The position numbers and the translations under genes are program-made. Under the pieces are notes generated by a model that was given only the letters and a program-made list of their open reading frames with translations, ran no database searches and was not told the DNA's origin. Shown here piece by piece: positions 2,292-51,528 of a stretch of 64,000 bases of DNA (position 1 is the first letter of the stretch; each line of letters opens with the position of its first letter). This stretch comes from Haloarcula marina (GTDB taxonomy: Archaea > Halobacteriota > Halobacteria > Halobacteriales > Haloarculaceae): contig NZ_CP100404.1 of assembly GCF_024218775.1 (NCBI RefSeq), positions 1,984,001 through 2,048,000 on the forward strand, in the 5' to 3' direction.

Positions 2292-3488
2292 ATGTCACGT
2301 GCTTCGTCGGTACGGAGTGGCGGCGACGGCGTCGAGTTGCTCCACCGACTGGTCGGTGGGGACGGCGGCGCGGCCTTGGACGCGCTGTTGGAGGGGTTCG
2401 AACGGCGACATCCCGACGTGTCGCTCGGCGACGTTACCGACGAGAACCTCAGCCTCGAAGTCAAGAGTCGCATCCTCAAGGAGAACCCCCCGGACGTGTG
2501 GATAGAGTGGCCCGGGAAGAACCTCCAACCGTACGACGACGCCAGCGTCCTCGGTGACGTCACGGAGGTTTGGGAGAGCGGCGACATGGAGCGGAACTAC
2601 CTCGACGGGCCGAAGACGGCCTCGAAATTCGACGGCGCGTACCGGGCCGTCCCGCTCAACATCCACCGCATCAACAACCTCTTTTTCAACGTGGACCTCG
2701 CCGACGAGGTCGGCGTCGACCCCGCGAGCATCGACAGCCCTCGCGCGTTCGCGGACGAACTACAACGTATCGACCGGGAGACGGACCACGTCGGGATGCT
2801 GTTCCCGATGAAGAACCCGTGGACCGTCTTGCAGGTGTGGGAAACGGTCCTGCTGGGCGAACACGGTCACGACACCTACGTCGGCATCACCGACGATTCG
2901 GCGTCGGCCCACCGCCGGGCCATCGTCGACGCGCTGGACATCGTCAAACAGTACAGCCAGGTGGCTACTGACGACAAACTCTACATGGCGCTGACCGACG
3001 CCAACGACCGCTTCATCGAGGGCGAGTCGGTGTTCTTCCATCAGGGCGACTGGGCCGCCGGGGCCTACAGCGAGTCCGACCGCTTCCGCTACCACGAAGA
3101 CTGGGACCACGTGCCGTTCCCCGGGACGGAGAACCTCTACGCGATGAACATGGACGCGGTCATCTCGGCCGCCGTCGTCGACGACCCCGAGGCCGTCTCG
3201 AAGTTCCTCGCGTACGCGGGGTCGCCCGACGGACAGAAGCTATTCAACCAGAAGAAAGGCTCCATCCCGCCGCGGACCGACGTGGACACCAGCACGTTCA
3301 CGCCGTTCCTGCAAGAACAGCAACAGGCCTTCCAGCACTCCCGCGCCCAACCGCTCTCGATTACCCACGGTATCGGGGTTCGCCCGGCCCAACTCATCGA
3401 ACTGAAGACGGCCATCTCGACGTTCGTCTCGACGTGGGACGTGGACGCGGTGGCCGACGACATCGTCGCCGCCTTCGACGCGACGTAA
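2292..3488 (+). CDS. Family 1 solute-binding protein, glucose-type, without signal peptide
   Basis: A 398-residue bacterial extracellular solute-binding-protein fold. It resembles glucose/mannose-binding proteins: VPLNIHRINNLFFN, GDWAAGAY, an SPDGQKLFNQKKGSIPPRTD segment and a C-terminal HGIGVRPAQ motif are all present. Unusually there is no Sec or Tat signal and no lipobox. The reading frame upstream is closed by a stop at 2265-2267, so a leader cannot have been missed. The protein is therefore predicted to stay in the cytoplasm. No ABC permease or ATPase adjoins it; instead a chemoreceptor gene diverges from it 104 bp away. Binding-protein family is confident; a sensory role is inference. 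Confidence 0.85.
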   Translation: MSRASSVRSGGDGVELLHRLVGGDGGAALDALLEGFERRHPDVSLGDVTDENLSLEVKSRILKENPPDVWIEWPGKNLQPYDDASVLGDVTEVWESGDMERNYLDGPKTASKFDGAYRAVPLNIHRINNLFFNVDLADEVGVDPASIDSPRAFADELQRIDRETDHVGMLFPMKNPWTVLQVWETVLLGEHGHDTYVGITDDSASAHRRAIVDALDIVKQYSQVATDDKLYMALTDANDRFIEGESVFFHQGDWAAGAYSESDRFRYHEDWDHVPFPGTENLYAMNMDAVISAAVVDDPEAVSKFLAYAGSPDGQKLFNQKKGSIPPRTDVDTSTFTPFLQEQQQAFQHSRAQPLSITHGIGVRPAQLIELKTAISTFVSTWDVDAVADDIVAAFDAT

Positions 3489-3539: not shown

Positions 3540-4790
3540 ATGGGACTGGCGAACGACATCGACTACGCAGACCTGCACGACCCCAACGCCGAATACACGA
3601 TGCGAGAGCTCTCGTCGGAGACGATGGGAGTGACCGCGAAGCGCGGTGGGGGCCGCGACGTGGAAATTACCGACGTTCAGACGACGATGGTCGACGGGAA
3701 CTTCCCGTGGACTCTGGTCCGCATCTACACGGACGCGGGCATCGTCGGCACCGGTGAGGCCTACTGGGGGGCCGGCGTCCCGGAACTCATCGAGCGGATG
3801 AAGCCGTTCGTCATCGGCGAGAACCCGCTGGACATCGACCGCCTGTACGAACACCTCATCCAGAAGATGTCCGGCGAAGGGAGCGTCGAGGGCGTCACCG
3901 TCACCGCCATCTCCGGCATCGAAATCGCCCTGCACGACCTCGCGGGCAAGATTCTCGAAATCCCGGCCTACCAACTACTCGGCGGCAAGTACCGCGACAA
4001 GATGCGCGTCTACTGTGACTGCCACACCGAGGAAGAGGCAGACGCCGACGCCTGCGCCGCCGAGGCCCGCCGCGTCGTCGACGAACTCGGCTACGACGCC
4101 CTGAAGTTCGACCTCGACGTGCCGTCCGGGTTCGAGAAGGACCGCGCGAACCGTCACCTCCGCCCGGGCGAAATCCGCCACAAGGCCGAAATCGTCGAGA
4201 AGGTCACCGAGGAAGTCAAAGACGAGGCCGACGTGGCCTTCGACTGCCACTGGACCTTCTCCGGTGGCTCCGGCAAGCGACTCGCCGAAGCCATCGAGGA
4301 CTACGACGTGTGGTGGCTGGAAGACCCCGTCCCGCCGGAGAACCTCGAAGTCCAAGAGGAAGTCACGAAGTCCACGACCACGCCCATCACCGTCGGCGAG
4401 AACCGCTACCGCGTGACCGAGGAGCGACGCCTCATCGAGAACCAGGCGGTCGACCTCATCGCGCCCGACATGCCCAAGGTCGGCGGTATGCGCGAGACCC
4501 GGAAAATCGCGGACGTGGCGAACCAGTACTACATCCCCGTCGCGATGCACAACGTCTCCTCGCCCATCGCGACGATGGCGAGCGCACAGGTCGGCGCGGC
4601 CGTCCCGAACTCGCTGGCCGTCGAGTACCACTCCTACGAACTCGGCTGGTGGGACGACCTCGTCGAGGAGACGGTCATCGAGAACGGTTACATCGAGATT
4701 CCGGAGGAACCGGGTCTCGGCCTGACGCTCGACATGGACGCCGTCGAGGAGCACATGGTCGACGGCGACACGCTGTTCGACGAGGAGTGA
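3540..4790 (+). CDS. Enolase-superfamily sugar-acid dehydratase (mandelate racemase/muconate lactonizing family)
   Basis: A 416-residue member of the mandelate racemase branch of the enolase superfamily, likely dehydrating an aldonate such as gluconate or xylonate to its 2-keto-3-deoxy acid. The N-terminal capping domain spans about residues 40-150. The barrel carries the three metal ligands in order: Asp in FDCHWTF (about 239), Glu in WLEDPVPPE (about 262) and Glu in VGENRYR (about 286). The acid/base His is in AMHNVSSP (about 340). Haloarchaeal gluconate (GnaD) and xylonate (XacD) dehydratases belong to this group, but the substrate cannot be fixed from sequence. KDG kinase at 34.1 kb would use the product. 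The gene is monocistronic. Confidence 0.85.
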   Translation: MGLANDIDYADLHDPNAEYTMRELSSETMGVTAKRGGGRDVEITDVQTTMVDGNFPWTLVRIYTDAGIVGTGEAYWGAGVPELIERMKPFVIGENPLDIDRLYEHLIQKMSGEGSVEGVTVTAISGIEIALHDLAGKILEIPAYQLLGGKYRDKMRVYCDCHTEEEADADACAAEARRVVDELGYDALKFDLDVPSGFEKDRANRHLRPGEIRHKAEIVEKVTEEVKDEADVAFDCHWTFSGGSGKRLAEAIEDYDVWWLEDPVPPENLEVQEEVTKSTTTPITVGENRYRVTEERRLIENQAVDLIAPDMPKVGGMRETRKIADVANQYYIPVAMHNVSSPIATMASAQVGAAVPNSLAVEYHSYELGWWDDLVEETVIENGYIEIPEEPGLGLTLDMDAVEEHMVDGDTLFDEE

Positions 4791-19914: not shown

Positions 19915-21282
19915 TCACTCGACGAGTGCGGCTTGGAGCAGTTCCAGCGGGTGACGAATCTCGTAGCCCGTGCCGTGTTCCATCTGCATCGCGCAGGTGG
20001 GACACTCGGTCATGCCGGTGCTCCCCTCGGCGTGTTCCATGTGGTCGAACATCTCGTCGCCTATCTCCATGGACTTCTCGTACTTCTCTTCCTTCCAGCC
20101 GTAGGTCCCGGAGATACCTGAACAGGACTCGCCCACGTCCTCGATACCGACGCCCTCTAAGTCGCGGAACAGTTCGACGGCCTGTCGGTCGAGGCCCTGA
20201 TTCCGGGCGTGACACGGAGCGTGGTAGGCGAACTCGTCGGCGAGGTCCCCTGACACGTCGGCCGCGCGAATCTCGTCGCGAATGTCCTCGTGGATTCGGA
20301 GGTATTCGATTGCTTCGAACGTGTTCGCGGCCACGTCTTCGATGCCGTCGATGTCGAACAGTTCGGGGTACTCCTGTCGGAGCGCCATCGAACACGAGGT
20401 ACAGGAAGCGATGGCGTCGTACCCTTGGTCGACGAGGTCAGACATCGAGGAGACGTTCACCTCGGCGTGGCGGCGGGCGTCGTCCAACATCCCGTTGGCG
20501 AACATCGGCGTCCCCGAGCACTTCTGCTCGGGTGCGACGACTTCGTAGCCGAAGTGCTCGAAGACGTGGACCATCGCCTTGCCGACTTCCGGCGTGTTGT
20601 AGTTGGAGTAACACCCGTGGAAGTAGGCGACCTTCTTGTCGGCTTCGGCGGGTTCGCCTCGGCGCTCGCGGGCCTCGCGGGCGTTGCGTCGCGAGGCGTC
20701 GGCCCCGCCGCGGTCGGCCCACCACTCGCGGAAGGTCCGCTGGGCGAACTCGGGGAAGTCCCGTTCGCTGGTAATGCCCATCGTCTTCTCCATGACCCAG
20801 CGGGCCGGGCCGAAGTTCATCGCGAAGTTCGCGAGGCGCGGGACCTTGCTGGCGAACCACGCCGACGTGCGGTAGTTCGCGAGGATGCGGTTGCGGACGT
20901 ACTCCACGGAGAGTTTGTCCATCTGCTCGCTGACGTACTCGCCGCGGGCGGTGTTGTGCATCTGGCTGAGCGGGACGCCCGACGGACAGGCGTTGTCACA
21001 GCGCATGCAGTTCGAGCAGGACATGACCGAGTCGTCTATCTCGTAGTCGTCGTCGGTCTGTTTCAGCCGCCACTGCTCGGGGCCCTGGAACTTCGGCCCG
21101 GGGAACTCGTCGTCCACCTCCGCGACCGGGCAGTTCGTGTCGCAAGTGGAGCACTTGTAACACGAGTCCGCGCCGGGTCGCAGGTCGAAATCGTCGCTGT
21201 CGGGGAACACCTCGACCGGTTCGAAGTCCTCCCCAGTGTTCGGTTCAACTGGGTCGAAGTCTGGTGATTGTGCGTCGCTCAT
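19915..21282 (-). CDS. glpC: Anaerobic-type glycerol-3-phosphate dehydrogenase subunit C (iron-sulfur)
   Basis: A 455-residue iron-sulfur subunit passing electrons from GlpAB to the quinone pool. Two 4Fe-4S clusters are marked by CYKCSTCDTNCPV (about 41-53) and CSNCMRCDNACPSGV (about 89-103). The C-terminal half has two cysteine-rich CCG-type domains (HGCYSNYNTPEVG, PEQKCSGTP; YHAPCHARNQG, GESCSGISGT). Last gene of glpABC; its ATG overlaps the glpB stop by 4 nt. In haloarchaea this GlpABC type is used for aerobic glycerol growth (family knowledge). Confidence 0.93.
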   Translation of the reverse strand: MSDAQSPDFDPVEPNTGEDFEPVEVFPDSDDFDLRPGADSCYKCSTCDTNCPVAEVDDEFPGPKFQGPEQWRLKQTDDDYEIDDSVMSCSNCMRCDNACPSGVPLSQMHNTARGEYVSEQMDKLSVEYVRNRILANYRTSAWFASKVPRLANFAMNFGPARWVMEKTMGITSERDFPEFAQRTFREWWADRGGADASRRNAREARERRGEPAEADKKVAYFHGCYSNYNTPEVGKAMVHVFEHFGYEVVAPEQKCSGTPMFANGMLDDARRHAEVNVSSMSDLVDQGYDAIASCTSCSMALRQEYPELFDIDGIEDVAANTFEAIEYLRIHEDIRDEIRAADVSGDLADEFAYHAPCHARNQGLDRQAVELFRDLEGVGIEDVGESCSGISGTYGWKEEKYEKSMEIGDEMFDHMEHAEGSTGMTECPTCAMQMEHGTGYEIRHPLELLQAALVE

Positions 21283-22550
21283 TGTCCCTCCGCCGCGGCG
21301 CTCGTGCCCGCCGCATAGCCTGTCGCAATCGAAACGCCACTGCCCGACTTCTCGGCCGCGAAGTCGTACCCGCCCAACACGCCGCCCGCGGCACGGAGGT
21401 TATCGAACTCCACCGTGCCGTCGGCCGCCAGCGGTCGCAGGTCCGCGTCCGTCTCGACGCCGAACCCGGCGAACGGATGGTCGCCGAACACGTCGGTGTC
21501 GAACCAGTCGTATCTGTCGTCGCTGTGGGGGACGTGACACCCGAACACCGGTTCGACGACGCCTTCGCGGTCGGACTCGATGCCCTTCCCGACGAGGCCG
21601 CCCGTCGCGAGGACGTACTGGTCGGCCGACAGCGGGATTCGCGCACCGTTTTTCTCCATGAACACCCGCTCGATAACGTCCTCGCCCTCGTAGTCGACGA
21701 TTGGGTTGCCAGTCTCGAAACTGGCCCCGGACTCGTCGAGCGCTTCGAACAGCGCGTCCTCGAGTCTGAGGCCGGGGAGCGACGGCGGCCCCATCGGCAC
21801 CTCGAACACGTCGGCCCCCAGTCGCTCGCCGAGGTCACGGCGGACTTCATCGGCGTGGTCGTCCCCGAGAATCGACGGGAACCCGACGCGCGTCTCGTCG
21901 TCGATGAGCGGGTTCACGCGTGCAGCTAGCGCCTCGCGGGCGGGCCGTTTGCGTCCGCGAACGGCCACCTCGCCGTCGGTGTCCAGTAGCTTCGCGTACC
22001 GGGTCACTTTCGCGTCGGCCCGCAGGTCGCCGGGGAACCGAATCGTCTCGCCGCGCACGTCGAAGGGCACCCCCGCCGCATCGAGGTGGGCGGCGGCGTG
22101 GGGCGCGTCGAAGTCGGTCATCTCCTCGATGCCGACGAGGAGTACGTCGCGGTCGTCGCTGGCGATGCCCGCGGCGGCGCCGCGCGGGTATCGCGCTGTC
22201 GGCTTGACCGTCCCGCCGTGGGTCGGCAGCAGGGCGTTCGTGTCCGTGTGCCCGCCCTCGTAGTCGGTCACCTCGTCGAACATCGACATCGCCTCGCGGA
22301 CGGTGTCGACGCCGACCGTTCGGTACGGATGGGAGGCGGGGAGGTCCGCCATCGCCGCGTAGGGGTCGGTCAGCGGCCCCTCGCCGTCGGGCGTGTATCC
22401 CAGCAGGTCGACGAGGCCGGAGGCGTGCCGGAGCGTACTTTGCTTGTAGGAGACGAGGCGTACGTCCGCGCCCTCGCGGGCGGCGGCGATGGCGCTGGTC
22501 AGGCCCGCGAGGCCACCGCCGACGACGAGTACCTCCGACTCAATCGCCAT
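21279..22550 (-). CDS. glpB: Anaerobic-type glycerol-3-phosphate dehydrogenase subunit B
   Basis: A 423-residue flavoprotein subunit. The N-terminal Rossmann FAD/FMN motif is [16 protein letters not shown] (about 8-23) and there is a C-terminal FAD-contact stretch near [11 protein letters not shown] and [11 protein letters not shown]. It bridges GlpA and GlpC in the membrane-associated dehydrogenase that oxidises glycerol 3-phosphate to dihydroxyacetone phosphate. It overlaps glpA by 11 nt and glpC by 4 nt, so the three are cotranscribed. Confidence 0.92.
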
Positions 22551-24273
22551 GCGTCCCTCCGTCGGCGGCGACGTCTGCCGCGCCGGAGTGTCCGCCGCTG
22601 TCGACGCCGGTGTCGAACGCGCCGAAATCGACCGGTTCGCGCTCGCCGCTCGCCGGGTCGTGGTCGCGGTTCTGTGTCGTGGCGTGGAGCGCGTAGTTCA
22701 GCGCCGCCTGCGAGAGTTGTTCGCCCCAGAGGGCGTGTCGCTGGCCCTTCCAGCGCTCCTGCAGGAGTTCGTCCCACGCCTCACGGGCGATGGCCTCGTC
22801 GTACTCGCCGTGGAGTTCGTTGGCCATCCGGTGACAGCAAAAGCCGCCCTGACAGTTGCCCATCGAGGCGCGGGTGCGGATGCGGACGGCGTTCAGGTCC
22901 GACCCGGACTGGCTGATGGCGTCCTGAATCTCGGCGCGGGTGACGCCCTCGCACTCGCAGACCGTCGGATTCGGGGAGTCCGTCTTCAGCACTTCGTCGG
23001 CCCGAGAGCCGAGGCGTTCGACGCTCCGGCGGCCGATGGGGGACCGGAGGCCGAACTCGTCCATGTAGTCGCGGAGCACGGAGAAGTCCTCGCTCCCGGG
23101 GAGCGGTTCTTCCGCGGTGCGGCAGTCGGCGTCGATGCCGAACTTCCCGCAGACGTGGTCGGAAATCTTCTCGCCCATCATCCGGTAGGTGGTGAACTTC
23201 CCGCCGACGATGCTGGTCATGCCCGGCAGGTCGTCCCGTTCCTCGTGGTCCAAGAGGAAGAAGTCCCGCGTGATGTCAGTCGGGTCCTCACTGCCCACGT
23301 CCGGGGGTTCGTACAGCGGGCGGACGCCCCAGAACGACCGGATGGTCCGGGCCTCCTGAAGCATCGGGACGAGTTCCGACAGCGTCTCAATCATCAGGTC
23401 GACTTCCCACTGTTTCTCGGGGTAGTCCTCGGGGTCCTCCACTTCCTCGTCCGTCGTCCCGAGGATGGCCGTCGTCTCGTGGGGGACGACGATGTCGGCG
23501 TCGCCCTTCGGCCGACAGCGGTTGATGACGGTGTCGACCTGTCGGACGTTCATGATGGTCATGACGCCCTTCGACGGGCGGACGGCGATGTCGACACCCG
23601 CCATGTCGCCGATGCGCCCTGCCCACGCGCCCGTCGCGTTGACGACGTAATCCGCCCGAATCTCCTCGGTGCCGCCTGCCGTCCCGTGGACACGTTTGCC
23701 AGCGCCGGAGGCGTGTTCGACTTCCAGGCCGACTACCTCGCCGTCTTCGACGAGGAGGTCGGTCACCTTCGAGTGCGTCTCGATACGCGCGCCGTGTTCC
23801 TGTGCGCTGGCGGCGTTGGCGACGACGAGTCGGAACGGGTCGATTGCACCGTCGGGGACGGTAATCGCCTTGTCGATGTCCTTCGCGAGGTGGGGTTCCA
23901 TCTCGCGGGCCTCCTCGCCGGAGACGACTTCGGCGGGGATGCCACACTCTTTACAGCCCTCTAACTTCTTCTGGAAGTATTCCTCGTCGTCCTCCGGCCG
24001 TTTGACGAACATCCCGCCGGTCATCTCGACGCAGTGACTGGCGATGTCCCGCAGGACGCGGTTCTCCTCGATGCACTCCGTCGCGCTGGCCTGGTCCGAG
24101 ACGGCGTAACGGCCCCCGCTGTGGAGCAGGCCGTGCATCCGCCCCGTGGTCCCGTGGGTCAGGTTCCCCTGCTCGACGAGGGTCACGTCGAGGCCCCGCA
24201 TGGCGAGGTCACGGGCGATGCCGACGCCGGTCGAACCACCGCCGATGACGGCGATGTGTGGTGTCGATGCCAT
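22540..24273 (-). CDS. glpA: Anaerobic-type glycerol-3-phosphate dehydrogenase subunit A (catalytic)
   Basis: A 577-residue catalytic subunit. The FAD motif is [18 protein letters not shown] (about 6-23), followed by the GlpA/D segment [19 protein letters not shown]. The C-terminal BFD-like [2Fe-2S] region has VCECEGVT (about 437) and CQGGFCCHR (about 474). The tail is rich in Gly/His/Asp. First gene of the operon; a TAAAATAAA stretch about 30-40 nt upstream (near 24303-24314, minus strand) is the likely promoter core. It is divergent from the fused chemoreceptor gene across 338 bp. Confidence 0.94.
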
Positions 24274-24611: not shown

Positions 24612-24615
24612 ATGA
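24580..24615 (+). other. Possible 11-codon upstream ORF coupled to the fusion gene
   Basis: ATG at 24580 opens a reading frame for [11 protein letters not shown] that stops with TGA at 24613-24615, overlapping the ATG of the chemoreceptor fusion (ATGA at 24612-24615). With a TATA-like box at 24539-24549, translation of the main gene could be coupled to this small ORF. The length is short enough to be chance. Confidence 0.25.
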
Positions 24616-27188
24616 GCAGGTGGAATCCGTTTTCATCCGAGGTACCCGTCCGGTCGGACGGCGGCACGGCGGACAGCAGGGACCGCGGTGACGAGACGAC
24701 AGGAACCGACGAGCGAGACCCCTCGGCGTCATCGACGAACCGAAGAGACGACACCGGAGGCGACAGTGGTGGAGACAGCGGCGACGCGGATGTCGTCGAC
24801 GACGGCCCCTCACCCGACGAGGAGATAGCCCGACTCGAAGACGAACTCGCGGCCGAGCGCGCGCGGCGAGAGGAATTCCAGCGCGCCGTCGCGGACTTGG
24901 CCGAGGTGGTGGACGCGAACGCCGACGGCGATTTCACCGTCACGCCGGGGAAGCCAGCCACCGAACAGGCCCGCGTTCTCTACGATTCCTACGGTGAGTT
25001 ACTGGCGGAGTGGCGCGAGACGGTCGAGCGGATGGCGTCGTTCAGCGAGCAGGTATCGTCGGCCACCGAACGAGTCGACGACCGCCTCGACAGCGTGAAA
25101 GGCGCGAGCCGCGATGTCGGCGACGCGGTCGGCGAGATTTCGACCGGGTCGCAGACGCAGAGCGAGCGCATCGGGGACATCTCCGACGAAATGCGCAGTC
25201 TCTCGGCGACCATCGAGGAGATCGCCGCCTCGGCCAACCAGGTGGCAGAGACATCGAAGGAAGCCAGTTCGCGCGGGACGAGCGCACAGCGTGCCGCTGG
25301 CGACGCGATGGACGAACTCGACCAGTTGACCGACCACGCAGAGGAGACGGCGGAAAAGGTCGAACGGCTGAACGATCTGATGACCGACATCGAGGACATC
25401 GTGGAGTTCATCACCGACGTAGCGGACCAGACGAACATCCTCGCCCTGAACGCCAACATCGAGGCCGCCCGCGCTGGCGAGGAGGGCGACGGGTTCACCG
25501 TCGTCGCAAACGAGGTGAAGAACCTGGCCAGCGAGACGAAGCGCGCGACGGACGAAATCGAGTCCTCCATCGACAGGGTTCACGACCACGCCGAAGCGAC
25601 GGTCGAGGAGATGCACCATACCCAGACGACCGTCGAGAGCACCCACCAGGCCGTCGAGGAGGCTCTCGAGGAACTCGACGCCGTCGTCCAGCGCGTCGAG
25701 GACGTCGACGCGAGCGTTCAGGAGATAGACGACGCGACAGACACCCAAGCGAAATCGACCCAGGAAGTCGTCTCGATGGTCGACGAGGTGGGCGAGATAA
25801 GCGAACAGACCGCCACCGAAGCGGCGACGGCCGCCGACGCCGCACAGGAGCAAACGACGGAACTGGCGGAGGTATCGACTCGCGTCTCGACGCTGACCGA
25901 GCGCGCGGACACGCTCGAACGGACGCTCGACGAGTTCGAGTTGGACGGGGCGGCCGGGACGGCCCGGTCGGCGGACACCGTCGTCGAATTCTGGCACGCG
26001 ATGGGCGGGGAGAAGGCGCTCCTGTTGGAGTCGCTGGCCCGCGAGTTCGAGGAGTCACACGAGGATATCGCCATCTCGCTCACTTCGAAGGGGAGTTATC
26101 GCGGGACGCTGAACGCGACGCTCGACGCCGCGGCCGCCGGTACCGGCCCGGCCATCGCGCAGGTGTTCGAAATCGGGAGTACGCGCGCACGCGACAGTGG
26201 ATACTTCGTGCCGGTCGAGGACGTGCTTCCGGCCGACCACCTCGACTCCCTGTTGGACTCTGTCTCGAACTACTACCGCATGGACGGGAAGCTCCAATCG
26301 CTCCCGTTCAACGCGTCGAACCCGGTGCTTGCCTACAACCGCGACGCGTTCCGACAGGCGGGACTGGATCCCGACTCGCCGCCACGAACCCTCGCGGACG
26401 TTCGCTCGGCCGCACAGCGGCTCGTCTCCCGGAACGTCACGGACTACGGCATCACGTTCGCGAACTACTCGTGGTTCGTCGAGCAGTGGTTCGCCGAGGC
26501 AGACGAACTGCTCGTCGACAACGACAACGGTCGGTCGGGAACCCCACGGACCGCGAACCTCGACGGCGAGTTCGCACGGGAGTTGGTCGGCTGGCTGACA
26601 GAGATGGAATCCGAGGGCCTGTATCTCGACCCCGGTATCGAGGCCCGCGGGAAGGCCCGCAACGCCTTCCACGACGGGCAGGCGGCGATGCTCATCGGGT
26701 CGACCTCGTCGCTTCGGGCCATCGAATCCAGCGGCGACTTCGAGGTCGAAACCGGGATGTTCCCGGTACTTGGCGACCGAACGGGCGTCCTCGTCGGCGG
26801 GGCGTCACTGTGGCTGAGCGACGACCTCCCGGCCTCGACGCGGTCGGCCGTCGGCGAGTTCCTGACGTGGCTCTCGGAACCGGCCCAACAGAAGCGGTGG
26901 CACCAGGAGACGGGGTACTTCCCGGTCCACGAAGACGCGATACCCGAACTTCGGTCGGAAGGCTGGTTCGAAGCGAACCCCCACTATGCCACGGCGTTCG
27001 ACCAGTTGGTCGGGACGACGGACACCACCGCGACCCGGGGCGCGCAAATCGGGCCGTTCGACACCGTCCGGACCATCGTCGAGGAAGGCATCGACAACGT
27101 CCAATCTGTCGACGAGGTGTCCGAACGGTTGACGAGAGTCAACTCGCAGGTCGAGAAACAACTCGAATCGTACGCATCAAAGCGTTAG
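24612..27188 (+). CDS. Cytosolic methyl-accepting chemotaxis protein fused to a UgpB-like glycerol-3-phosphate-binding domain
   Basis: An 858-residue protein with no signal peptide and no transmembrane helix. Residues 1-75 are an acidic, low-complexity leader. Residues about 80-445 are a chemoreceptor coiled coil with a canonical tip ([20 protein letters not shown], about 274-293). Residues about 455-858 are a full family 1 binding-protein fold closely resembling Ugp[71 protein letters not shown] and [11 protein letters not shown]. Positions known to hold glycerol 3-phosphate in E. coli UgpB (Tyr, Glu, two Ser, Gly, Tyr, Arg) all appear conserved. Flanked by glpABC and glpK, it is best read as an intracellular glycerol-3-phosphate sensor for taxis. 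Confidence 0.9.
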
Positions 27189-27316: not shown

Positions 27317-28849
27317 ATGGCAGACACATACGTCGGTTCGATCGACCAGGGGACGACTGGAACGCGTTTCATGGTCTTCGACCACAGCGGGCAAGTCGTA
27401 GCGAACGCATACGAAAAACACGAGCAGATTTATCCGAATCCGGGGTGGGTCGAGCACGACCCTATCGAGATTTGGGAGAACACCAAGAAAGTCGTCCAGC
27501 GCGGATTGGAGGACGCAGACCTCGACGCCAGCCAACTCGAAGCGCTCGGTATCACAAATCAGCGCGAGACGACTATCGTGTGGGACAAGGAGAGTGGCAA
27601 GCCGGTCCACAACGCGCTCGTCTGGCAGGACCGCCGGACGACGGACCGCGTCGAGGAGATTCAGGAGGCGGACAAAGTCGAGTGGATTCGTGAGAAGACC
27701 GGGCTGGAAGCCGACGCGTACTTCTCGGCCACCAAGACCGAGTGGATTCTCGACAACGCCGAACCGCTGAAGATGGAGGCCTCGCGCGGCGAGGACCTTC
27801 ACGACCGTGCGGAAGCGGGCGAACTCATGATGGGGACCATCGACGCGTGGCTCATCTACAACCTCACCGGCAACCACATCACTGACGTGACCAACGCGTC
27901 CCGGACGATGCTGTACAACATCCGGGACCTCGAATGGGACGACGAACTCCTCGAAGAGTTCAACGTCCCCCGTTCGATGGTGCCGGAGGTCCGACCGTCC
28001 TCCGACGAGGACTACTACGGCCACACGGACGCCGACGGCTTCCTCGGCGAGGAGATTCCCGTCGCTGGCGCGCTGGGCGACCAGCAGGCCGCGATGTTCG
28101 GCCAGACCTGTTTCGACGAGGGAGACGCGAAGAACACCTACGGGACCGGTTCGTTCTACCTGATGAACACCGGGAACGAGGCCGTCGAGTCCGACCACGG
28201 ACTCCTGACCACTATCGGCTTCCAGATGTCCGGTGAACCCGTCCAGTACGCGCTGGAAGGGTCCATCTTCATCACCGGCGCGGCAATCGAGTGGCTCGAA
28301 GACGTCGACCTCATCAACAACGCCGCACAGACCGCGGAACTCGCCCGGTCCGTCGACTCGACGGACGGGGTCTACATGGTTCCGGCCTTCACCGGCCTCG
28401 GCGCGCCGCACTGGGACGGCCGCGCACGCGGCACCATCGTCGGCATGACGCGCGGCACGCGCAAAGAACACATCGTCCGTGCGACGCTCGAATCCATCGC
28501 CTACCAGACCCGCGACGTGGCCGAGGCGATGGAGGCCGACTCCGGCGTCGAACTGACCTCGCTTCGCGTCGACGGCGGGGCCGTCAAGAACAACTTCCTC
28601 TGCCAACTCCAGTCCGACATCATCCAGACGGACATCGCCCGTCCGGAAGTCGACGAGACGACGGCGCTCGGGTCCGCGTACGCCGCGGGTCTGGCCGTCG
28701 GCTACTGGGACACCGTGGACGAACTCCGCGACAACTGGCAGATCGACCGCGAGTTCAGTCCCGAGAAGAGCGCCGACGAAGTCGACAAACTCTACAGCCG
28801 CTGGGACGACGCCGTCGAGCGCTCGCTGGACTGGGCACAGGAGGAATAA
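27317..28849 (+). CDS. glpK: Glycerol kinase
   Basis: A 510-residue FGGY-family kinase that phosphorylates glycerol to sn-glycerol 3-phosphate, the entry step of glycerol use. The phosphate-binding start GSIDQGTTGTRFMVFD (about 6-21), the family signature region YFSATKTEWILDN (about 135-147) and the C-terminal DGGAVKNNFLCQLQSD (about 418-433) are present. Full length for the family. The membrane protein follows 3 nt after its stop, so the two are cotranscribed. The product is the substrate of GlpABC and the presumed ligand of the adjacent chemoreceptor. Confidence 0.96.
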   Translation: MADTYVGSIDQGTTGTRFMVFDHSGQVVANAYEKHEQIYPNPGWVEHDPIEIWENTKKVVQRGLEDADLDASQLEALGITNQRETTIVWDKESGKPVHNALVWQDRRTTDRVEEIQEADKVEWIREKTGLEADAYFSATKTEWILDNAEPLKMEASRGEDLHDRAEAGELMMGTIDAWLIYNLTGNHITDVTNASRTMLYNIRDLEWDDELLEEFNVPRSMVPEVRPSSDEDYYGHTDADGFLGEEIPVAGALGDQQAAMFGQTCFDEGDAKNTYGTGSFYLMNTGNEAVESDHGLLTTIGFQMSGEPVQYALEGSIFITGAAIEWLEDVDLINNAAQTAELARSVDSTDGVYMVPAFTGLGAPHWDGRARGTIVGMTRGTRKEHIVRATLESIAYQTRDVAEAMEADSGVELTSLRVDGGAVKNNFLCQLQSDIIQTDIARPEVDETTALGSAYAAGLAVGYWDTVDELRDNWQIDREFSPEKSADEVDKLYSRWDDAVERSLDWAQEE

Positions 28850-28852
28850 CGG

Positions 28853-29929
28853 ATGGTTTCCGGTCTGCTCCTTCAGATTCCGATATTCGGCGTCGAGGTG
28901 CCGCGGTTCATCGCGCTCCTCCTCGCCGCGTTCGCGGGCGGTGCGTTCGGGGCCGCAATCGGCGCGCTCCCGGCGTTCTGTTTCACCGGGTTCATGGTCA
29001 TCGCCGGTGAGGCGGTGAACATCCTCGTCGCCGAACTCGGTTCGGTACTCGACATCGCTGGCGGCGAAATCGGCGTCGGCGTCACCGGTTCCATCGCGTT
29101 CGGTCCGGTCTTCGGGCCGCACATCTCCTTCGCCGCCGGTGCCGCTGCGGCAGCCTACGCCGCGAAAAACGACGGCCTCCCGGAACCGAGCGACGGAGAC
29201 TATCACCCTGCGAAGGACATCGCCTACGCGCTGGGTACCCGCCCGGACATCCTCGCCGTCGGCGGCGTCTTCGGTATCCTCGGTCTGCTGATTACCCGCG
29301 TCTCCGCGGGTATCGGCGCGCCGTGGGACCCCATCGCCATCGCCGTCGTCCTCTCGGCTGTCGTCCACCGCCTCGTCTTCGGCTACCCCATCATCGGGGC
29401 TGGCAGCAACAACCTGCTGGACATGACGCCGTTCGAGAAGGGCGAAGAACGCGTCGCCGCCGACGGCGGCACGGTCCAAGCGACCCGCCTCGCGGTCGAA
29501 CCGTGGCTCCCCCACCAGTACAAGTGGGCTAACGTCGCCATGATCGGCCTCGTCGCCGGTCTGCTCGGCGGCTGGATAGCTATCGTCACCGGCAGTGCGT
29601 TCCTCGGGTTCGGTATCTCCGCGGCGTCGCTGACGTTCCTCAACCTCGGCGTCGAGAAGATTCCGGTCACGCACCACATGACCCTCCCGGCGAGTACGGC
29701 CGCACTGGCCGTCGCGCCGATGGCTGGCGAACCGACGATGATCATCGCCGCGGCCGTCTTCGGTATCCTCGGCGCACTGGTCGGCGAAGTCGTCCAGCGC
29801 ATCTTCTACGCGCACTCGGACACTCACTTCGACCCGCCCGCAGCGGCCATCGTCGTCTGCACGTTCATCATCGCCGTGCTGTTCCTGGTGGGCGTGTTCC
29901 CGACGGCGGTCTGGATTCCGCTGCCCTGA
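28853..29929 (+). CDS. Polytopic membrane protein of the glycerol operon, candidate glycerol channel
   Basis: A 358-residue very hydrophobic protein with about eight to ten helices rich in Gly/Ala, a central cytosolic or external loop (about 187-225) and a terminal hydrophobic helix. It does not show the paired NPA motifs of aquaporin-type GlpF. A similar gene follows glpK in other haloarchaea and has been proposed as a glycerol facilitator (my recollection; no direct evidence here). It starts 3 nt after glpK. A CTTTTT run at 29937-29942 just after the stop may end transcription. Confidence 0.7.
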   Translation: MVSGLLLQIPIFGVEVPRFIALLLAAFAGGAFGAAIGALPAFCFTGFMVIAGEAVNILVAELGSVLDIAGGEIGVGVTGSIAFGPVFGPHISFAAGAAAAAYAAKNDGLPEPSDGDYHPAKDIAYALGTRPDILAVGGVFGILGLLITRVSAGIGAPWDPIAIAVVLSAVVHRLVFGYPIIGAGSNNLLDMTPFEKGEERVAADGGTVQATRLAVEPWLPHQYKWANVAMIGLVAGLLGGWIAIVTGSAFLGFGISAASLTFLNLGVEKIPVTHHMTLPASTAALAVAPMAGEPTMIIAAAVFGILGALVGEVVQRIFYAHSDTHFDPPAAAIVVCTFIIAVLFLVGVFPTAVWIPLP

Positions 29930-29985: not shown

Positions 29986-31161
29986 ATGGATCTCGAAGCG
30001 CGAATCAAACGACGCAGACGCCGGAACGGGGCACCGCGACTCGTTCAGGACTACGACTCGCTGTCGCCGGTGACCCACATCGACGAACCGGCCGACCGCG
30101 GGCCAGTGCTCGAGCAGTTGCTGGACCACTTGGACCCGGTGTTCGACGGAAACCTCCCGCCGAACGCGTACGTCCACGGCCCGATGGGGGCGGGGAAATC
30201 CGCCGTCGTCACGGCGCTGTTCTCCCACCTGAACCAGTTACCCAACGAGACGCGGGCCGTCATTCACACGACGACCCGCGCACACTCACCCACGTCCCCG
30301 GCGTTCGTGTACGTCGACGCGAGGAAGACGACCAGCGAGTTCGCGTTCTACCACGCCGTCTTGGACGCACTCGTCGAGGAGGCGGTCCCGGAACACGGCA
30401 TCGGTACGTCGACGCTCCGCCAACAGTTGCACGAGCGACTGGGGCATTCCCGTGCCGGTGTCGTCGTGGCCGTCGACCACGTCGGCGAATCACGTAGTAC
30501 AGACGAAGAAACACTCGTAGAGCTGTTCGCGGGCCTCCCGAGTAACGTCAGTTGGCTCGCTATCGGTCGGACGCCGCCACCGGAGACGACGCTGACGGAG
30601 TACACTGCCGACTCGATTCACGTCGACCGCTACCAGCGGCAGATGCTCGTCGACGTGCTGATGACGCGGGCATCCGTCGGCCTCGCACAGCAGGCGTTGG
30701 ACCACGGCCTCGCCCGCCGTATCGCTGAATGGGCGGAGGGCAACGCCCACGACGCCCTCGTGGCGCTGTTCATCGCGACGGAGTTCGCCAGCGACGCGGG
30801 ACGAAACCAGTTGACCGAGGGCGACGTGGAGGCCGCAATCGACGAGATTCCGGCCCCCTGTGTCTCGCTCGGCATCGTCCTGTCGCTGCCAGCCAACAGG
30901 CAGTCGGTGTTACGCGCACTCATCGACCTCGGGCCGGACGAACGCTCGTCGGTCACCGCGACCACGGAGGCAATCGGCGGTCGCTCCTCGGTGGACCTCT
31001 CGCCGGGGACGGTCAAACGCTTCCTCTACGAGATGGCCGAAGCGGGCGTCGTAGAGCGCGTGCAATCGACCGCACAGAAGGGACAGGGACGGCCCCCGAG
31101 CCGGGTCGTCCCGCGCTTCCCGCCGACGGCGTTCCGTCGGCTCTACGACCTTCGGCAGTAG
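29986..31161 (+). CDS. Orc1/Cdc6-like AAA+ ATPase with degenerate Walker B
   Basis: A 391-residue protein of Orc1/Cdc6 architecture: basic N-terminus (IKRRRRRNG), the HIDEPADRGPVLEQLLDHL segment, Walker A GPMGAGKSA (about 65-73), AAA+ lid domain and a C-terminal winged helix (about 300-385). Walker B reads VVVAVDHVGES, so the catalytic Glu is His, and the sensor-1 region LAIGRTPPPE lacks the usual Asn/Asp. No ORB-like origin repeats are visible in the short gaps on either side. It may be an orphan regulator or DNA-binding protein rather than a replication initiator. Confidence 0.8.
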   Translation: MDLEARIKRRRRRNGAPRLVQDYDSLSPVTHIDEPADRGPVLEQLLDHLDPVFDGNLPPNAYVHGPMGAGKSAVVTALFSHLNQLPNETRAVIHTTTRAHSPTSPAFVYVDARKTTSEFAFYHAVLDALVEEAVPEHGIGTSTLRQQLHERLGHSRAGVVVAVDHVGESRSTDEETLVELFAGLPSNVSWLAIGRTPPPETTLTEYTADSIHVDRYQRQMLVDVLMTRASVGLAQQALDHGLARRIAEWAEGNAHDALVALFIATEFASDAGRNQLTEGDVEAAIDEIPAPCVSLGIVLSLPANRQSVLRALIDLGPDERSSVTATTEAIGGRSSVDLSPGTVKRFLYEMAEAGVVERVQSTAQKGQGRPPSRVVPRFPPTAFRRLYDLRQ

Positions 31162-49151: not shown

Positions 49152-50387
49152 ATGCCAACGCTTCGATTGGTCGGGCGGCCGTTCGAGGGGTTCGAGAACG
49201 CGCTCCAGCGACAGATGGACTCGTTCGCCGCGTCTGTCGACGCCGACGTTACCTTCGAACGCGACCATCGCCCGCTTCCCGAGATTCACGAGGAGTTGCT
49301 CGATACCGGCGACATCGCCGACGGCCGGTACGACCTGTTCCTCTGCCTGAGCGACTGGCTGCCGATGGCCGCCGACGCGGGCTACCTCGAACCGCTGGAC
49401 GACCGGATGGCGGCAGACCCGCCCGAAGACTGGCCCGAAGGCTGGGCCGAGAGCCTGCGCGGCCTGATGGCCTACGACGGCACGACCTACGGCGTCCCGT
49501 ACCACGACGGCCCGGAGATATTCCACTACCGCGAGGACTGCTTCGAGAGCGTCGACGAGCAACGGGCGTTCCGCGAGGCGTACGGTCGCCCCCTCTCTGT
49601 GCCGCGGACGTGGGACGAGTTTCTGGAGGTAGCGTCGTTCTTCACGCGACCCGACGAGGACATGTGGGGGACCGTCGTCGCCGCGAAACCGGACGGCCAC
49701 AACGACGTGTACGACTTCGCCATCCACCTGTGGAGTCGCGGCGGACAGTTGCTCGACGACGAGGGCACCCCGGCTTTCGACAGCCCCGAAGGTCGAGAGG
49801 CGCTCCAGTACTACCACGACCTGATTCACGAACACGAGGTGGCGCCGCCGGAATCCGTCGAGATGGAGAGCGTCGAGACGGGGCAGTTCTACGCCGACGG
49901 GAAGGCCGCGATGATGTGGAACTGGTCGGGTTTTGGCGCGATGGCCGAGGACCCCGACTCGGCGGCGTTCGGCCGGACGAACTACGGCCTCATCCCGCGG
50001 GCGGACGCCGCCGCGGGCGAGCACACCTCGCTGACGGTGTGTTACGGCCTGACCGTCCCCGCCGGGGCCGAGCATCCGGACCTCGCCTACGACTTCATCC
50101 GCCACGCCGCCTCGCCGGAGAACGACCGCATCACGACACAAGAGGGAGCGTCGGGGACGCGGTTCTCGACGTGGCGCGACCCCGAAATCCTGCGGTCGAA
50201 CACGTTCTACTCGATATTGGAAGAGGTGAACACCGGCCCGGTGAACACGCTCCCACGCATCCCCGAGTACACGGAGTTGAACGAGATTCTGAACGAGATG
50301 GTCGAGGCCGTCGTCGTCGACCGGTCGATGTCGGTCGAGGACGGCCTCGCCGAGGCCGACGAGCGAGCGCGAGCGTTGCTGGAGTGA
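49152..50387 (+). CDS. Family 1 solute-binding protein without signal peptide
   Basis: A 411-residue carbohydrate-type binding-protein fold: MPTLRLVGRPFEGFENALQR, then YDLFLCLSDWLPMAADAGYLE, GVPYHDGPEIFHYRED, DVYDFAIHLWSRGGQL, DGKAAMMWNWSGFGAMA and the C-terminal RIPEYTELNEILNEM. It has no hydrophobic leader, no twin arginine and no lipobox. ACTTAATG lies about 28 nt before this ATG, so a longer secreted form is unlikely. Family 1 members normally sit outside the cell with an ABC transporter, but no permease is adjacent. It is in the uronate island; ligand perhaps a sugar acid or oligosaccharide, which is inference. Confidence 0.83.
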   Translation: MPTLRLVGRPFEGFENALQRQMDSFAASVDADVTFERDHRPLPEIHEELLDTGDIADGRYDLFLCLSDWLPMAADAGYLEPLDDRMAADPPEDWPEGWAESLRGLMAYDGTTYGVPYHDGPEIFHYREDCFESVDEQRAFREAYGRPLSVPRTWDEFLEVASFFTRPDEDMWGTVVAAKPDGHNDVYDFAIHLWSRGGQLLDDEGTPAFDSPEGREALQYYHDLIHEHEVAPPESVEMESVETGQFYADGKAAMMWNWSGFGAMAEDPDSAAFGRTNYGLIPRADAAAGEHTSLTVCYGLTVPAGAEHPDLAYDFIRHAASPENDRITTQEGASGTRFSTWRDPEILRSNTFYSILEEVNTGPVNTLPRIPEYTELNEILNEMVEAVVVDRSMSVEDGLAEADERARALLE

Positions 50388-50466: not shown

Positions 50467-51528
50467 ATGAGCGAGACAACGGCCAGCGATAGCGACGCCG
50501 AGACGGTCGATTTCGACGGGCTCCCGATGCGTATCGGCCTCGGTCAGTTCATGGACCCAACGCCGGAGAAACTCCGCTTCTGCAAGCAGTTGGGCGTCGA
50601 CGACATCCTCCTGAACATGTATCGGTACTCGCCGGACTACCCGCACATGCCCGACAACGAGCGGATTCCGTTAGAGGGCGACGAGGAGTGGTCGTACGAG
50701 AACCTCGTCGAACTGCGCGAACGCGTCGAGTCGGCGGGCCTCCGCCTGAACGCCATCGAGAACATCCCCATCTCCTTTTACGACAAAATCATGCTCGGTC
50801 GGGAGGGGAGGGAGAGGCAGATGGAACACGTCAAGACGACCATCAGGAACATCGGCCGGGCGGGCATCCCGATGTTCGGCTACCACTGGATGCCCGGCGG
50901 CGTCTGGCGCAACACCGACGTGACAGTTCGAGGCGGCGCGGGCGCGTCCGGGTTCGACCTCGATGCCGTCCCAGACGACTTCACCCACGGCCGGGAGTAC
51001 ACCGAGGAAGAACTGTGGGACAACTACGAGTACTTCCTCTCGGAACTGCTCCCCGTCGCCGAGGAGGCGGGCGTGCAGATGTGTCTGCACCCCAACGACC
51101 CGCCCGTGCGGTCGCTCGGCGGCGTTCCACAACTGTTCCGCAACTTCGAGAACTTCAAGCGGGCTATGGAACTGGTGCCGAGCGAGAACCACGGACTGGA
51201 GTTCTGTCTGGGCTGTTGGTCCGAGATGGGCGAGGATTTGCCCGAGGTCATCCGCTACTTCGGCGAGCGCGACAAACTGTTCTACGTCCACTTCCGCGAC
51301 GTGGACGGGACGGTCCCGCGGTTCAACGAGACGTTCGTCGACCAGGGGAACTACGACGCCTACGAGATTCTGTCGCTGCTGGACGAGGTGGGATTCTCGG
51401 GCCTCGTCATCCCGGACCACGTCCCCCACGTCGAGGGCGACACCGACTGGGAACACCGCGGGCGCGCCCACGCCGTCGGCTACCTGAACGGGATGCTGAA
51501 CGCGATTCGCCACGAGCGCGGGCGCTGA
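50467..51528 (+). CDS. Mannonate dehydratase-like protein (UxuA family)
   Basis: A 353-residue TIM-barrel enzyme of the UxuA family, which dehydrates D-mannonate to 2-keto-3-deoxygluconate. Motifs: the N-terminal LGQFMDPTPEKL, FGYHWMPGGVWRNT, CLHPNDPPVRSLGGVPQLF, GLEFCLGCWSEMG and VHFRDVDGTVPRFNETF, then IPDHVPHVEGD. The second UxuA-like gene (56680) is closer to E. coli UxuA in its PMRPDHVP and LHPDDPP motifs, so this paralogue may have a different substrate such as another aldonate. An SDR gene follows 50 bp downstream with its own promoter. Confidence 0.85.
   Translation: MSETTASDSDAETVDFDGLPMRIGLGQFMDPTPEKLRFCKQLGVDDILLNMYRYSPDYPHMPDNERIPLEGDEEWSYENLVELRERVESAGLRLNAIENIPISFYDKIMLGREGRERQMEHVKTTIRNIGRAGIPMFGYHWMPGGVWRNTDVTVRGGAGASGFDLDAVPDDFTHGREYTEEELWDNYEYFLSELLPVAEEAGVQMCLHPNDPPVRSLGGVPQLFRNFENFKRAMELVPSENHGLEFCLGCWSEMGEDLPEVIRYFGERDKLFYVHFRDVDGTVPRFNETFVDQGNYDAYEILSLLDEVGFSGLVIPDHVPHVEGDTDWEHRGRAHAVGYLNGMLNAIRHERGR

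Follow-up and report, generated by a model that had tools for sequence, protein, structure and literature searches.

What does a substrate-binding domain sense when it is joined to a chemoreceptor that has no membrane anchor? This question is raised by a gene of Haloarcula marina located within a 64,000-nucleotide stretch of contig NZ_CP100404.1 (hereafter the window). An initial annotation, made from the sequence, described its product as a cytosolic chemoreceptor fused to a domain resembling UgpB, the glycerol 3-phosphate (G3P) binding protein, and proposed that it acts as a taxis sensor of internal G3P. In brines, algal glycerol, for instance from Dunaliella, is regarded as a main carbon source, and no haloarchaeal receptor for glycerol was described in the literature we searched.

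One Open Reading Frame Joins a Chemoreceptor to a UgpB-Fold Domain

The gene is an intact open reading frame with an ATG start and encodes 858 residues without interruption (Table 1). MCPsignal (PF00015) matches residues 226–396 with 140 bits (Pfam cut-off 34.6) and SBP_bac_8 matches residues 475–794 with 136 bits (cut-off 27); SBP_bac_1 also scores far above its cut-off, the two binding-protein models together spanning about residues 473–794, confirming that a chemoreceptor and a binding-protein domain share a single frame. In an AlphaFold2 model calculated from an alignment of 39 fused homologues, helices are predicted at residues 68–104, 118–287 and 289–445. The last two form a long antiparallel hairpin with a largely invariant tip, which, together with the MCP domain above cut-off, places the N-terminal part in the chemoreceptor class. 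Two 10-residue stretches of the receptor, one at residues 198–207, resemble the methylation consensus by pattern matching. From residue 456 the chain is predicted to fold into a two-lobed domain, with pLDDT mostly between 85 and 98.

The resemblance of this domain of about 400 residues to UgpB, first read from the sequence, agrees with the structure prediction. The closest Foldseek match is UgpB 6x84 (rmsd 2.2 Å; TM 0.90 when normalised to the target), and the top ranks are UgpB structures, with 9lff and 4aq4 following; in a sequence search, E. coli UgpB (4aq4, E=6e-57) is the nearest solved structure. Against the NCBIfam equivalog model of UgpB, the domain nevertheless scores 218 bits, short of the 411 required, and is thus a relative of UgpB and not a certified UgpB. 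It has the SBP_bac_8 match and the fold of that protein, but not the equivalog score, both clamp tryptophans, the export signal or the ugpA/ugpE/ugpC operon.

Table 1. Coordinates in the window of the fused gene, its parts and its neighbours
Feature	Residues	Position	Strand	Evidence
Fused chemoreceptor/UgpB-fold gene		24612..27188	+	ORF; Pfam; homologues with identical two-domain build at named loci
N-terminal tail, acidic, disordered, without signal peptide or TM helix	1-66	24612..24809	+	pLDDT <50 for residues 1-65; hydropathy
Chemoreceptor helical hairpin, arms 118-287 and 289-445	118-445	24963..25946	+	Pfam MCPsignal; predicted helices
Signalling tip, 20 residues	273-292	25428..25487	+	Sequence; most residues invariant in 39 homologues
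Short linker, receptor C-terminal helix to binding domain	446-455	25947..25976	+	Predicted structure, low confidence
UgpB-fold binding domain	456-858	25977..27185	+	Pfam; sequence search; predicted structure; pocket alignment
Conserved CAGTAACTACTATATA block, ~65 nt 5' of start codon		24531..24546	+	Alignment of glpA/receptor intergenic region, 12 loci
glpA, anaerobic G3P dehydrogenase subunit A, divergent neighbour		22540..24273	-	TIGR03377, 778.6 bits vs cut-off 552.8
glpB		21279..22550	-	NF003722, 739 bits vs cut-off 349
glpC		19915..21282	-	NF008369, 593.5 bits vs cut-off 278
glpK, glycerol kinase, directly downstream		27317..28849	+	TIGR01311, 721.6 bits vs cut-off 590
Membrane protein 3' of glpK		28853..29929	+	Order glpK-membrane gene-AAA kept in Haloarcula, Halonotius, Halohasta

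Both Domains Lie on the Cytoplasmic Side

The fused protein appears to be cytosolic throughout. The maximum Kyte-Doolittle mean over 19 residues is 0.99 across the whole 858-residue protein, with no segment at the transmembrane threshold, and Tat, Sec and lipobox motifs are absent from it. The receptor is therefore, as annotated, free of a secretion signal and of a transmembrane helix, as in the soluble class of chemoreceptors. Since no membrane span lies between the signalling tip and the binding domain, the two must be on the same side, in the cytoplasm. The standalone haloarchaeal relatives of UgpB that we inspected differ in having both a twin-arginine signal and a lipobox cysteine. Within the same genome, 11 of the 15 SBP_bac_8 matches have Tat/lipobox signals, the exceptions being the fused gene and three others.

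The nearest homologues by fold and by sequence are exported proteins, and a single N-terminal hydrophobic helix is predicted for some homologues from Halonotius and Halohasta; both facts could be taken to mean that the domain is turned to the outside and detects glycerol phosphate there, as an ordinary binding protein does. However, the protein in the window has no Tat, Sec or lipobox motif and no transmembrane segment, and its tip has to meet CheA and CheW inside the cell, with no span to separate it from the binding domain. We reject an outward-facing domain on this topology and regard it as barely credible. The homologues with the N-terminal helix come from Halonotius, Halohasta and one related MAG (L056, L057, L059-L062 and L064, with assumed starts), and the receptors of this subclade may be membrane-tethered; in them, too, no span divides the tip from the binding domain, which leaves both in the cytoplasm.

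The Ligand Pocket Is Conserved except for One Clamp Residue

In Phaeobacter UgpB, the phosphate is contacted by Tyr64, Ser143, Ser266 and Tyr342 and the hydroxyls by Glu88, Gly303 and Arg393, with Trp188 and Trp191 forming a clamp (PMC12718374). The fused protein has the corresponding residues Y496, S569, S697 and Y769 at the phosphate and E520, G730 and R820 at the hydroxyls. Of the clamp, W621 (E. coli Trp172) is kept, whereas N618 replaces E. coli mature Trp169 (Phaeobacter Trp188). All eight core contacts are invariant in the 39 fused proteins, compared with 75 of 399 domain positions overall (P about 1e-6). Judged from this alignment, the pocket is intact and strongly constrained. The initial annotation held that the residues gripping G3P are conserved, which stands for eight of nine positions and fails at the Trp169 clamp (Asn618). 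The Trp169 position is Asn in 34 and Thr in five of the 39 fused homologues; Asn is also found there in secreted haloarchaeal UgpB relatives, so that loss of the tryptophan is not specific to the fusion.

How much this substitution matters for the ligand can be gauged from UgpB proteins of known specificity. E. coli Trp169 is reported to be essential for G3P, and its counterpart in mycobacterial UgpB is Leu205 (reviewed in PMC7034087). The mycobacterial protein, in which the Trp169 position is thus substituted (PMC7034087, PMC4929945), is specific for glycerophosphocholine (GPC), and its binding of G3P is undetectable (PMC7034087). Putting the tryptophan back failed to restore G3P binding (PMC4929945), indicating that this residue alone does not decide specificity. 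Furthermore, Phaeobacter UgpB does not discriminate between G3P (Kd 0.80 uM) and sn-glycerol-1-phosphate (G1P; Kd 2.36 uM) (PMC12718374).

The ligand of the fused domain is probably a glycerol phosphate. G3P is the most likely candidate, and we would give a mechanism with strictly G3P as the ligand an even chance. As the Trp169 clamp is lost and UgpB also binds G1P, the domain may have relaxed affinity or may read the summed glycerol-phosphate pool. The archaeal cytoplasm makes G1P as a lipid precursor.

The Receptor Gene Is Flanked by Glycerol Catabolism Genes in Part of Its Range

The position of the gene between glpABC and glpK, as initially annotated, is borne out, with all four neighbours scoring above curated cut-offs (Table 1). 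The gap between the receptor gene and glpK is 128 nt and contains a separate conserved TATA-like block, while the CAGTAACTACTATATA block on the other side may also be BRE/TATA-like. A regulatory motif shared by the upstream regions of glpA, the receptor gene and glpK was considered and discarded, as only BRE/TATA-like blocks and no common operator were found. The membrane protein encoded 3' of glpK has no match in Pfam or NCBIfam; conceivably it is a candidate for glycerol entry. A gene for an AAA/Cdc6-lid ATPase (29986-31161, +) adjoins glpK and the membrane gene in several genera.

At the Haloarcula, Halomicroarcula and Halomicrobium loci, glpC-glpB-glpA diverges from receptor-glpK-membrane protein-AAA, although at a few loci one gene is undetected or the contig stops short. 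In Halohasta (L062, L057), glpCBA diverges from glpK-membrane protein-AAA-receptor-HPr-enzyme I, followed by DhaM-DhaL-DhaK, an order that places the receptor between glycerol and dihydroxyacetone catabolism. In a survey of the fusion in other haloarchaea, as the initial annotation had suggested, the receptor gene was found close to glp genes in Halomicrobium, Halonotius and Halohasta as well as in Haloarcula, whereas the Haloferax and Halorubrum receptor loci showed no link to glp. The neighbours in Haloferax, Halorubrum and Haloarcula rara are unrelated (a tRNA amidotransferase subunit, FtsJ, ornithine cyclodeaminase and ribosomal proteins), and the glp synteny is therefore clade-specific. 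Another genome of the same genus has an apparently broken copy of the fused receptor, matching part of the domain only (G233:C4:76335-77078, -), which adjoins glpK at C4:74360-75865.

The same architecture could serve another cytosolic ligand, such as a glycerophosphodiester (for example, a glycerophosphocholine-like product of lipid breakdown), G1P, DHAP or another small phosphate. The Asn at the Trp169 position, present in all haloarchaeal relatives, would fit such a ligand, as would the binding of glycerophosphocholine by mycobacterial UgpB, which lacks this tryptophan (PMC7034087, PMC4929945), the glycerophosphodiesterase genes in some sister ugp loci and the dihydroxyacetone kinase in the Halohasta synteny. 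On the other hand, glpCBA and glpK are the immediate flanks in the clade of the window, and the four phosphate contacts, the Glu/Gly/Arg hydroxyl contacts and the second clamp residue, Trp172, are all kept. We consider a ligand of this kind unlikely, although more probable than the other alternatives.

The Fusion Arose Once within Halobacteriales

A match to the binding domain was found in 117 of 392 Halobacteriales genomes. By open-frame length, 63 of the 392 genomes have the fusion, the remaining matches being standalone or partial. A phylum-wide sample gave no match from genomes outside Halobacteriales, and a scan of genome contigs turned up only unfused bacterial relatives. The fused domains form one clade (99/95), with a single change in 99% of bootstrap trees; the sister group is a clade of secreted haloarchaeal UgpB (97/87), and bacterial UgpB falls outside. 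On this phylogeny, the fusion is of single origin. That origin and the 63 fused genomes rule out a recent or chance fusion in one genome. Two other candidates were set aside: an apparent in-frame TAG in three relatives, where the match had overrun into the ordinary stop of the gene, and an 813-residue frame in G307 (42% identity), which is a standalone, signal-bearing protein and not a fusion.

CheA was matched in every one of the 63 fused genomes, compared with 237 of the 329 others (Fisher P about 1.5e-8, uncorrected for relatedness), and glycerol kinase is present in 62 of the 63. The sister standalone genes that we examined adjoin ugpA/ugpC-type transporter genes, some together with glycerophosphodiesterase genes, and their location beside the transporter genes supports glycerol phosphate as the ligand class of the wider family. 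In the H. marina genome itself, a search for a standalone UgpB gave no match, which argues against a part for the domain in an importer of the UgpB type. A role as a ugp importer component is rejected on this ground and because importer genes are not adjacent.

Other Binding Proteins without Export Signals

The window holds a second association of a binding protein with a chemoreceptor. The gene for a signal-less SBP_bac_8 protein (2292-3488, +) diverges from that for a chemoreceptor (700-2196, -), which has a hydrophobic segment near its N-terminus but, by Pfam, no ligand domain of its own. The five closest relatives of this binding protein (68–77% identity) are likewise signal-less, each with a chemoreceptor tip within ~1.5 kb, and all six closest genomes (L139-L144) retain the pair. 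This suggests that the protein is an unfused cytosolic binding-protein sensor paired with the chemoreceptor, and internal binding proteins as partners of chemoreceptors may not be a single oddity. An enolase-superfamily gene resembling sugar-acid dehydratases (3540-4790) follows. A second standalone signal-less SBP_bac_8 protein is encoded at about 49152-50387 (+; start approximate), just before a gene at 50467-51528 that we take to be UxuA-like, and a third signal-less homologue of the 2292-3488 protein (38% identity) is located outside the window (G000:C1:2072419-2073573, L136).

A wider, tentative conjecture, which we find possible but would not call probable, is that haloarchaea have repeatedly moved binding proteins of ABC importers into the cell and turned them into metabolite sensors for taxis. 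The fused receptor and the unfused protein at 2292-3488 would be two such cases, the fused one reading the catabolic glycerol-phosphate pool in a cytoplasm where G1P is also present.

A Model for Metabolism-Dependent Taxis

The best explanation of the fused protein, and one that we hold to be reasonably probable, is a cytosolic, metabolism-dependent taxis receptor reading the glycerol-phosphate pool. In this model, glycerol would enter the cell and be converted by GlpK to sn-glycerol 3-phosphate, raising the cytosolic pool. The C-terminal UgpB-fold domain would then clamp glycerol phosphate between its two lobes, and closure of the lobes would act on the C-terminal helix of the receptor and alter the hairpin tip. 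The change at the tip would shift the activity of the single CheA of the cell, biasing the archaellum, and GlpABC would drain the G3P pool and end the signal. The identity of the ligand, the direction of the signal, methylation-based adaptation and the taxis output are what we infer in this scheme.

Evidence for the model comprises the TM score of 0.90, the invariant contacts, the single clade, the signal-bearing sisters, the glp synteny and the co-occurrence with CheA. Counting against it are the replacement of Trp169 by Asn or Thr, the indifference of UgpB to G1P and G3P, and the Haloferax and Halorubrum loci away from glp. Of the taxis sensor initially proposed, the fusion, the location in the cytosol, the fold of UgpB, the glp neighbours and a constrained pocket are upheld, but full conservation of the ligand residues is not. 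The H. marina genome has one CheA dimerisation-domain match and five archaellin-family matches. It is improbable that the domain is ligand-free, with a structural or protein-contact role only, or that the output is something other than taxis: none of the eight core residues of the pocket varies, even between deeply diverged haloarchaea, and beside the single CheA match a separate output pathway is not evident.

If the taxis model is true, cells steer by their processing of glycerol and not by the external supply, and a class of proteins defined by extracellular work gains a sensing role in the cytosol. It also raises the question of whether such a sensor distinguishes catabolic G3P from G1P, the precursor of archaeal lipids.

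Comparison with Known Systems

A survey of archaeal chemoreceptors from 2022 names SBP_bac as one of their ligand domains and also reports cytoplasmic receptors in which the ligand domain is C-terminal (PMC9680633). Its SBP_bac receptors probably include relatives of the fused architecture, so the initial remark that no haloarchaeal case of the fusion was known needs qualifying. In the text that we could read, the survey connects these receptors with neither UgpB nor glp genes and assigns them neither a ligand nor a mechanism (PMC9680633). Our literature search yielded nothing direct on a UgpB-type or glycerol-phosphate chemoreceptor. Soluble chemoreceptors whose sensor is C-terminal are an already known class; we came across no description, however, of one with the identity of UgpB, an intact pocket and glp/dha synteny, or of a binding protein re-used in the cytosol for taxis.

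With the UgpB proteins of the UgpBAEC importer (E. coli, 4AQ4/6X84; Phaeobacter, 9LFF), the binding domain shares the fold, ~30% identity, eight of nine ligand contacts and the C-terminal Arg segment. Unlike them, the fused protein is not exported, has no evident importer role, carries a chemoreceptor and has Asn in place of Trp169. M. tuberculosis UgpB (4MFI/6R1B) has the same fold and likewise lacks the Trp169 clamp, but it has Leu and not Asn at that position, is more distant in sequence, is exported and binds glycerophosphocholine.

Among chemoreceptors, the H. pylori protein TlpD is soluble and has a C-terminal CZB domain. Receptors of this class share with the fused protein the membrane-free build and the position of the sensor after the signalling hairpin, but their sensors are CZB or PAS domains, whereas the fused receptor has a two-lobed binding-protein domain. 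The BasT/BasB and CosT/CosB systems of Halobacterium each consist of a membrane receptor and a separate exported lipoprotein binding protein. They likewise are chemoreceptors that use a binding protein; there, however, the binding protein is separate and exported and the receptor lies in the membrane, while in the fused protein the two are joined in one chain inside the cell.
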